This document shows positions 55,255-57,865 of a stretch of DNA of 64,000 nt, one piece after another. The DNA is from a virus. Under the pieces are notes generated by a model. The model worked only from the letters and a program-made list of their open reading frames with translations. It was not told the origin of the DNA and searched no databases. Numbering within the stretch: position 1 is the stretch's first letter; every line of letters starts with the position of its first letter. A program made the position numbers and the translations under genes. Where the stretch lies: the IMG/VR virus record IMGVR_UViG_3300046824_000031, positions 1 to 64,000 of that record; one strand, given 5' to 3'.

Positions 55255-55471
55255 GGTCTTTGGTAGTCCTTTCCATGAGTTCCGTAGCGGAACGGTCTTG
55301 TAGAACCGGGGGTCTCCCTGTAGCAAGGTCTCCATAAATTTTCGGTACAGGGTGGGGCTCACGATCCCTTTCTCTTGAAGCCTTTGTTTCAGGCGAACGA
55401 CAGGATTAGGTACGGATGCGACGAGTCTTGCCAGGGGTACACCTCCCACAACCTGACCGGAATTCAAGTAT

Positions 55472-55510
55472 AGCAGGGAGTGGACGCAGTGTCAACGTCC
55501 ACTCCCTGCT
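55472..55510 (-). terminator. 15-bp perfect hairpin after the VWA gene
   Basis: AGCAGGGAGTGGACG (55472-55486) and its exact complement at 55496-55510, loop of nine. It lies 15 bases beyond the stop of the VWA gene and is followed leftward by a short T/A-rich stretch. Confidence 0.7.
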
Positions 55511-55524
55511 CTCTGGTCAGGCAC

Positions 55525-57087
55525 TTACAACTGGAACCAGACAGGCTCGGCCTCGTAGGGGAAACAGCCTGAGATGTTGAAGTCCACGTCCTCCTGAGCG
55601 GCGACAGTACTTCGGTAGAGCTTGACCTTCTGCCGACTCAACAACTTGTGCATGGTTTGCGTGTTCGGTACACGCAGAATCTCGTGCGCCTTCATCCACG
55701 AGTCGCACTTCTCCCGTAGCAACCCGTCGCTCTCGTTGTAGTAGCCCATCGGGGGGCACTTGGTCGGCGGTCCTACGATCACCCCGCCGCAGACCATCCC
55801 GTCCGAGAGCCACAGCCTGGGCTTCGGCCAGCGAGCCAGGAGTTGGAGGGCCTCAAAGTCCACGTCATTCCCCCCGTTCATCTCGGGATCCAGGCCCGTG
55901 AACTTGGCGAACCGTCCGTCCTTGGCGATGATGCAGATCCTCCCGAAGACGGAATCTCCTGCGCTGTTCCTGATGCCGTACTCAACGCCGGAGTAGACGC
56001 CCACTCTAACAGCCGGGACTTTCGACATCAGTAACTGCATGTCCTCTTCAGTCCACCGCATCGACCCTGATCCGTCGATCATGATGCCGGCTTCAGTCAG
56101 GAGTCGTTGACTGAAGATCGCCTTATCCAAGAACCACCGATGTGGAAACCTAAGCCCAATCCCCTGGGATACCGGGATAGCTCGACGTGCAATCCGCATC
56201 GAAGGGCGACGGACCGTCGCCGTGTGATCGTGATACTGAACTCGGCCCTCGGTAACCACGTCGCTACCGATCCCAGTCTCCAGCTTTTCCAGATATTCAG
56301 CGTGCTCTTCCTCCTCCTGCTCGGCTGCATCCTGCGCCTCCTGCTCTTCCTTCTTGGGGGGCGGCGGCTTCTGCTCAGGCTCCTGTTCCAGCGGGAAGAA
56401 GACGGCCAGTTCCGACGCGACCTTGTTCCTCGTGTGGTGGGTCGGCGTCTGGTACATCTTCATGCAGCCGCGTATCATCGCTCGACCTAGTCGCTCGTTC
56501 TCTTCGAGGACCATAGCCCAGCACTTGTCGAAATACTCCGCTGTGTCAGGGTCAACAGCCCTGGCGGGTGGTGGATTTGGTACTCCCGATTTTCCCCCCA
56601 ATCCACGGGAAGCCCAGACAGTCCAGGCAAGTTGCAGACACATGCCCAACGCATAGAGAACTGTCGGCGGGTCGGGCATGAGGCTCCAGTCCAGAGTCTC
56701 ACGAGCAGGTCGCAGGTCAATACCCTTCCGGTCCCATAAGATCCAGTCAATCCTATTCTCTTCCATCATCTTCTGGATCTTCATGACAGCGTTTGGATCG
56801 ACCGGCTTCCCAAGCTGTATCTGCGCACTCGTCAGTGCCTTGAGAACCTGCTTGTCCCAGTCACGGGGGCTGAACTTGATGTGTCCCGCTTCATGCATTC
56901 TCGCCAGTCGCTGGGCTGGCGTGTTAGGGGGAGGAACCCACGCTTCCTGGTTCGCCGTGTCTACCGCTGCGTCCTGGATGTCTACCTCGTTGACCGTCCA
57001 GGCCCCAGGGTTTGGGTCGATCAACTCGGGGAGGTAGAGCGTCGGGTTTCCCCGACGCCTTGGCTTGTCTGTCTTACTCGTCGTCAT
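55525..57087 (-). CDS. HEAGH metallopeptidase-like plus VWA domain protein
   Basis: A 520-aa protein; ATG 57087 is chosen among several clustered Met codons (57108-57087). Residues about 64-70 contain HEAGH, a gluzincin-type zinc motif, followed about 45 residues later by MMEENRIDWIL, which could give the third ligand as in related proteins with an ExxR(I/V)(D/E) segment. A Glu/Gln/Lys-rich linker leads to a C-terminal VWA domain with MIDAS sequence GIMIDGSGSM and later WLSDG. This layout fits the DUF2201/CobT/NorD-like partners of MoxR ATPases, and such an ATPase is encoded directly upstream. The substrate is unknown. Confidence 0.8.
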   Translation of the reverse strand: MTTSKTDKPRRRGNPTLYLPELIDPNPGAWTVNEVDIQDAAVDTANQEAWVPPPNTPAQRLARMHEAGHIKFSPRDWDKQVLKALTSAQIQLGKPVDPNAVMKIQKMMEENRIDWILWDRKGIDLRPARETLDWSLMPDPPTVLYALGMCLQLAWTVWASRGLGGKSGVPNPPPARAVDPDTAEYFDKCWAMVLEENERLGRAMIRGCMKMYQTPTHHTRNKVASELAVFFPLEQEPEQKPPPPKKEEQEAQDAAEQEEEEHAEYLEKLETGIGSDVVTEGRVQYHDHTATVRRPSMRIARRAIPVSQGIGLRFPHRWFLDKAIFSQRLLTEAGIMIDGSGSMRWTEEDMQLLMSKVPAVRVGVYSGVEYGIRNSAGDSVFGRICIIAKDGRFAKFTGLDPEMNGGNDVDFEALQLLARWPKPRLWLSDGMVCGGVIVGPPTKCPPMGYYNESDGLLREKCDSWMKAHEILRVPNTQTMHKLLSRQKVKLYRSTVAAQEDVDFNISGCFPYEAEPVWFQL

Positions 57088-57865
57088 CGTCATCATCCTC
57101 GTCGTCATCCAGGAGATCGTCGTCCTCGTCCCCACCCATAGCGAGAGCTTCCAGGAACCCTGTCGCCAGTTTCAGGTGTCCGTGGCAGGCCGACAAGGCC
57201 GCTTGCTCCAGGGGCAGGACGGCACGTAGGGCCTGGAAGGACATCAGCATCCGAAAGGTAACAGCCGGTCCGATCATGGGATCTTCGGGCTTGTCGTAGC
57301 TGTCCTCGCAGACCGATTGAAGATCCTTGTCCAGCAGGGCTATCTGCTTGGCCGACGGCTTCGTGATGATGAACGTGGCGTCAAACCTATCGAGCAGAGC
57401 CGGATCGAGTGACCCATCGTAGGGCCAGCCGTTCATGGTCGCCACGTTCATCATGCCCCGCTCAGGCTTGAAGGTTCGACCGATATAACTAATCTCCCCG
57501 CCCCGCCCGTTGTCGAGGGCGCCGTGCAAGAAGATCTTCATCGGACCGGAGGCTTCGTTGATCTCGTCGTGGATCAACATCCCTCCGTTCTGGTACGCCA
57601 GATCGAGGGGGCCAGGCATCCAGTCGAACGACTTTTCCTTGGGCACATACATCCCGAAGATCTCAGGGGGGCTGCCTTCGGCGTGGTGCTGAACCTTATA
57701 GGCCAGCATCTTCAGCAGATCAGCGAGCAGGAAGGGGAAGGTGGTCTTGCCCACCCCTGGAGGGCCTGCGAGCAGGATGTTCCTCATCGTCAGCTTCAGT
57801 TTGCGAGCCTGGACGACAGCCTTGAACACATCCTGAAGATTTGCGGACTGAACTAATGCGGCCAT
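57074..57865 (-). CDS. MoxR-type AAA+ ATPase
   Basis: A 263-aa ATPase with SD GGGAGA before ATG 57865. Walker A is LLAGPPGVGKTT (34-41), Walker B GGMLIHDEIN (99-102), sensor 1 Asn in NVATMNGWPY (145), then SLDPALLDRFD with the Arg finger (160). These features place it in the MoxR/CobS/NorQ group. The C-terminus ends in an acidic run (DDDEDDDDDDE) whose codons overlap the start of the VWA gene. It should remodel or activate the VWA partner. Confidence 0.9.
   Translation of the reverse strand: MAALVQSANLQDVFKAVVQARKLKLTMRNILLAGPPGVGKTTFPFLLADLLKMLAYKVQHHAEGSPPEIFGMYVPKEKSFDWMPGPLDLAYQNGGMLIHDEINEASGPMKIFLHGALDNGRGGEISYIGRTFKPERGMMNVATMNGWPYDGSLDPALLDRFDATFIITKPSAKQIALLDKDLQSVCEDSYDKPEDPMIGPAVTFRMLMSFQALRAVLPLEQAALSACHGHLKLATGFLEALAMGGDEDDDLLDDDEDDDDDDE

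Follow-up and report, generated by a model that had tools for sequence, protein, structure and literature searches.

Pairs of a MoxR-type AAA+ ATPase and a metallopeptidase-vWA protein are an already known kind of phage gene pair (PMC7824862, PMC8651126), and they have been explained in several ways. Iyer et al. (2021) described MoxR-vWA pairs with an N-terminal metallopeptidase in jumbo phages (group 2.2) and proposed a role in virion assembly, citing a MoxR-vWA system that is needed for tail assembly in an archaeal virus (PMC7824862). A 2021 PLoS Biology survey of archaeal tailed viruses reported that viral cobST is widespread, considered the name 'peptidase' a mistake, and read the viral CobS/CobT as raising cobalamin production (PMC8651126). 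In NorQD, the VWA finger of the partner enters the pore of the MoxR ring, which twists a linker and so drives the insertion of metal (iron) (PMC13036017). A sequence-only reading of the pair described here has now added host takeover to the explanations for such phage pairs. In the literature searched we found no experiment deciding among virion assembly, cobalamin production and takeover.

The pair lies in the window (the whole 64,000-nucleotide stretch that was analysed, from a virus record of 67,172 bases). A gene for a predicted MoxR-type AAA+ ATPase of 263 aa with an acidic C-terminal tail (57074..57865 (-)) is followed by the gene for the HExxH/VWA partner (55525..57093 (-), ~522 aa). 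The open reading frame of the latter spans 55525-57135 (-), and plausible ATGs at 57108, 57096, 57093 and 57087 place the start within 57087-57108 and give a product of about 520-527 aa. As the sequence-only reading had described, the two genes are coupled: they overlap at 57074..57093 (-), where the VWA gene starts within the acidic-tail codons of the ATPase. The partner is arranged as an N-terminal HExxH (zincin-like) region, a helical middle, an acidic linker and a C-terminal VWA domain. Genes for PolA, a primase-helicase and a SNF2 helicase are nearby, which agrees with the early-arm location given in that reading, and the pair is remote from the terminase, capsid and endolysin genes. At 55467-55508 (-), in the gap that separates the VWA gene from the gene after it, a near-perfect sigma-70 consensus (TTGACA, 17 nt, TATACT; expectation 0.13 in the window, allowing up to one mismatch) shares bases with a perfect inverted repeat of 12 bases, AGGGAGTGGACG / CGTCCACTCCCT. 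Together these resemble a promoter with an operator.

Direct tblastn searches and peptide-pattern scans of phages, viral contigs and genome contigs with the window proteins returned no relatives of the VWA partner. The family was recovered with DNA patterns based on the MIDAS and on PRxWxSDG, followed by an alignment search, which yielded about 40 viral contigs and showed that related phages do carry the pair. A further 81 bacterial stretches sharing the MIDAS pattern were rejected as unrelated. Viral and bacterial sequences were pooled and near copies removed, leaving 40 full-length partners. The AAA gene adjoins the partner, on its upstream side, at almost every locus where the upstream DNA is long enough to tell (L161 is an exception, and two loci have gaps of 439 (L141) and 776 bases (L162)). 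The AAA and VWA genes are co-evolving, with distances that correlate at 0.81 (permutation maximum 0.23), and the MoxR/VWA pairing proposed from the single locus holds across the family. Over 30 viral loci, the pair has no third gene as a conserved companion, in contrast to the MoxR-vWA ternary conflict systems (VMAP etc.), which have a conserved third component.

The ATPase carries Walker A (GPPGVGKT, 57743-57766 (-)) and Walker B (HDEI, 57560-57571 (-)) motifs, a sensor-1 asparagine (N145), an Arg finger (R160) and R205. The first four had been picked out from the letters of the window, and the key residues (G37, G39, K40, E101, N145, R160, R205) are invariant in 25 homologues. Among profiles, AAA_5 matched at 2.3e-13 and AAA_3 also exceeded its cut-off, while the bpMoxR profile (E 0.034) fell under its own; PHROG matches were 16448 and 249 (CobS). 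In a solved-structure profile search, the best matches included midasin, NorQ, CbbQ and CobS. On Walker A and B, sensor 1, the Arg finger and the profile matches, the product of 57074-57865 is classified by sequence as a MoxR-type AAA+ ATPase.

The partner has no match in Pfam, and its sole PHROG match, 33218 (function label: unknown), is also matched by all 30 scanned members of the partner family. Its MIDAS motif DGSGSM (56059..56076 (-), residues 340-345 of the 522-aa form) is accompanied by further MIDAS-like loops, N409xxD412 and SDG (D431-G432), with Asn at the loop-2 position instead of the usual Thr. Both DxSGSM and the N-x-x-D loop are present in 40/40 of the non-redundant full-length homologues. 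A structure model built from the one sequence was of no use (pLDDT 34.6), and AlphaFold2 with 30 sequences gave a model with pLDDT 74 and pTM 0.45. The top VIA-align match of this model is the NorQ-bound NorD VWA domain (Z 9.8, 152 residues, 4.0 A); NorQ-bound NorD VWA chains, at Z 9.8 and 9.4, head the structural list, in which VWA domains recur throughout. A Z near 9.8 is weak taken alone, and the uniform fold across the list strengthens the VWA call. Foldseek against viral models found VWA proteins from other phages and from a haloarchaeal tailed virus. The C-terminal part of the partner is thus modelled as a VWA domain with a MIDAS, in line with the VWA fold that had been proposed around DGSGSM.

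The other motif noted in the sequence-only reading, HEAGH (56881..56895 (-), residues 67-71), is followed by EENR (56752..56763 (-), residues 111-114), in which E111 is the proposed third metal ligand. With this glutamate, H67-E68-xx-H71 would make up a gluzincin-type motif, that is, HExxH and a downstream Glu ligand. The putative N-terminal metal site resembles that of gluzincin peptidases, and peptidase activity would be expected from the likeness. In the AlphaFold2 model HEAGH lies within a predicted helix (59-74) after strands 33-36, 43-45 and 50-53, and EENR lies within predicted helix 100-123. Strands, then an HExxH helix, then a later Glu helix is the order expected of the zincin fold. 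Within the whole partner model, the N-terminal domain shows the strands and then the HExxH helix, with no fold match for that part. Because the pTM is 0.45 and Foldseek against the PDB with the whole partner model returned nothing at E <= 0.001, we base the proposed zincin fold on motif, secondary structure and homology.

HExxH is retained in 30/40 non-redundant homologues, mostly as R-x-HE[LM]xH-x-[KR]-x-[ST]P, and HEAGH and DGSGSM are both conserved motifs, above chance. The downstream Glu of E[DE]xR is present in 29/30 homologues with HExxH compared with 4/10 of those without (Fisher p 3e-4, computed ignoring the relatedness of the homologues); this glutamate usually goes when HExxH goes. 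The losses of HExxH are scattered over the AAA tree and include sister pairs of which one retained it and one lost it (L134/L147 and L148/L144). From this retention and co-loss, the metal site looks functional in most members, without being the component of the machine that all of them keep. Since HExxH has been lost in several branches and the MIDAS never, proteolysis is ruled out as a core function common to all members.

We compared the pair with the described systems. It shares with the jumbo-phage pairs an AAA+ gene adjoining a vWA protein with an N-terminal metallopeptidase domain (PMC7824862). Those pairs were reported from jumbo phages only and are set beside the PHROG 33218 family here by description; unlike them, this family extends to a branch in bacteria and includes members whose metal site has decayed. 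Viral cobST and the cyanophage CobS and 'peptidase' genes (PHROG 249 / 459) likewise combine an AAA+ protein with an HExxH/VWA protein. The N-terminal motif HExGHxxYTP...EDxRVE aligns between them and the family, and the HExxH...E[DE]xR region matches the cyanophage 'peptidase' beside CobS at E 3e-4 (0.14 when reversed) and also aligns with Gordonia phage CobT-like proteins. PHROG 459 is, however, far in sequence from PHROG 33218, and the gene order is reversed in S-CREM1. AAA proteins similar to that of the window are near HExxH/VWA proteins in Gordonia phages GMA2, Forza and Schomber and in Synechococcus phage S-CREM1; the HExxH/VWA protein of Schomber is annotated 'CobT-like'. Gene 197 of S-CREM1 (L004:1546-3687), annotated 'RNA binding protein', has HEVGH and DWSGSM, adjoins a MoxR gene and matches PHROG 459 'peptidase'.

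Cellular CobT has the same VWA with D-x-SGSM, N-x-x-D-x-x-AL-like and SDG loops, as well as an acidic linker. The E-x-x-R helix is kept in the N-terminal domain of the sampled cellular CobT proteins, whereas HExxH is absent. The sequence-only reading had pointed to CobT and DUF2201 profiles as checks, with mixed results. The CobT likeness stands as profile-profile similarity of the VWA part: the family VWA profile matched cellular CobT at a single-pair E of 1.3e-7 (reversed controls 0.39-0.77), a stronger match than that to CoxE (3.6e-4). The Pfam CobT families matched none of 30 partner members at E 0.1, and the DUF2201-type families PF13203/PF09967 matched neither the window proteins nor family members. 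The sequence resemblance supports a shared superfamily, not CobT membership. NorQ/NorD also combine a MoxR AAA+ with a VWA partner, and the NorD VWA is the best structural match of ours; the window pair differs in being without nitric oxide reductase genes, and NorD in being without a described HExxH domain (PMC13036017). We found no description of the PHROG 33218 branch or of its bacterial lexA-linked branch in the literature searched.

The pair is not purely viral, as one bacterial clade holds it at a LexA/SOS-type locus. PHROG 33218 was found in 5/396 genomes of an actinobacterial sample and 11/198 genomes of their class, and in 0/398 genomes of a Pseudomonadota sample, which as a sample does not prove absence. 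In an unrooted tree, nine bacterial sequences group as a single clade (100/100) placed among the viral ones. In nine loci the pair is followed by nrdR-, PIG-L- and dinB-like genes, in several cases with an intervening LysM protein (gene names in these loci come from our reading of the sequences, not from annotation). In five loci (L175, L176, L177, L178, L191) the AAA/VWA pair and a lexA-like gene are arranged divergently, with a perfect box between lexA and the AAA gene, and the LysM protein is DivS/YneA-like. Perfect CGAACN4GTTCG boxes, one to four per locus, occur in all of these nine loci (about 0.02 expected per locus). The SOS box between lexA and AAA may serve lexA alone, and the box pairs that follow the bacterial VWA gene are probably those of the LysM gene.

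For the window copy, SOS control was considered and rejected, with four one-mismatch boxes against 2.5 expected. On one related viral contig, which also holds L126, five LexA-type boxes, two perfect and three near-perfect, lie within the 600 bases before the AAA gene (L139:2079-2112); no such cluster precedes the AAA gene in the other 25 loci. One small bacterial genome (G974) has three copies (L192, L194, L195), of which two are alike and share a contig. These group among viral sequences in the tree, and a provirus or an assembly duplication is possible.

Our leading interpretation, which we regard as an even call, is that the AAA+/VWA pair is one ATP-driven remodelling machine, with a zinc-peptidase-like module that is usual but dispensable and with a DNA-linked target likelier than others. 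The parts of NorQD (PMC13036017) are all present in the pair, and on this ground we propose that the pair carries out ATP-driven remodelling by means of the VWA partner. The AAA+ protein would form a MoxR-type ATPase ring and, by analogy with NorQ and NorD, the ring would dock the VWA domain of the partner. ATP would then be spent twisting or pulling the partner, along with whatever its N-terminal domain holds. In most members, the window copy included, the HExxH...E site may also cut the remodelled target. As the metal site has decayed in a minority of members with MIDAS and ATPase intact, remodelling would be the constant function and cutting an optional one. The lexA-dinB-nrdR locus with its SOS boxes, taken with the replication arm of the window, hints that the target may be a DNA-metabolism or damage-response protein sooner than a tetrapyrrole or structural one, although the gene neighbourhood of the bacterial branch need not reveal the role of the phage copy.

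One alternative, following Iyer et al. (2021), is a chaperone for virion assembly that also processes structural proteins by peptidolysis. It draws on the domain layout shared with the jumbo-phage pairs and on the archaeal-virus MoxR-vWA system needed for tail assembly (PMC7824862), and in six related contigs the pair is just upstream of terminase-like genes, as assembly or packaging would suggest. The window copy, however, belongs to the replication arm, and the chromosomal locus of the bacterial clade, beside dinB- and nrdR-like genes, has no virion to assemble; we consider virion assembly unlikely. A remodeller or metallochaperone in which HExxH...E only binds or delivers metal, with no cutting, as NorQD inserts iron, seems to us improbable to the same degree. 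Among solved VWA structures NorD comes closest, NorQD inserts metal by twisting (PMC13036017), and HExxH decays in several lineages while ATPase and MIDAS persist. Against this, HExxH with a Glu further along is the classic layout of a catalytic site, it is kept in three quarters of members, and simple metal carriage needs no catalytic Glu.

The takeover proposal, in which the pair would be a host-takeover or counter-defence device disabling a specific host protein, is suggested by the early-arm position of the window copy. The pair is deeply conserved and resident in bacterial chromosomes, unlike typical fast-evolving takeover genes, and we think such a device quite unlikely. Least probable are aerobic cobalt chelatase subunits (viral CobST) hijacking host CobN for more cobalamin, for although the PLoS Biology survey reads viral pairs so (PMC8651126) and the VWA is closest in sequence to CobT, Pfam CobT matched 0/30 members, sampled cellular CobT is without HExxH, and a CobN/ChlH-type subunit (PF02514) was detected in 0/10 genomes with the bacterial pair, which may be incomplete, compared with 2/3 CobT-bearing controls, which argues against cobalt chelation.

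What is new here is the PHROG 33218 branch itself and an actinobacterial clade that keeps the pair in a lexA / LysM / nrdR / PIG-L / dinB locus. The bacterial branch weakens the routine annotation 'cobalamin biosynthesis' for the PHROG 33218 branch, and it makes the function of the pair genetically approachable. With members that have or have lost the metal site, and a lexA-locus branch with no detected CobN, the family offers a natural test of the explanations given for such pairs. The broadest form of our remodelling interpretation is a doubtful one, to which we give somewhat more weight than to any of the alternatives above: phages and some actinobacteria may share a LexA-linked, previously unannotated and ATP-driven AAA+/VWA-metallopeptidase, a remodelling peptidase of the DNA-damage response, which phages would deploy in replication or packaging.
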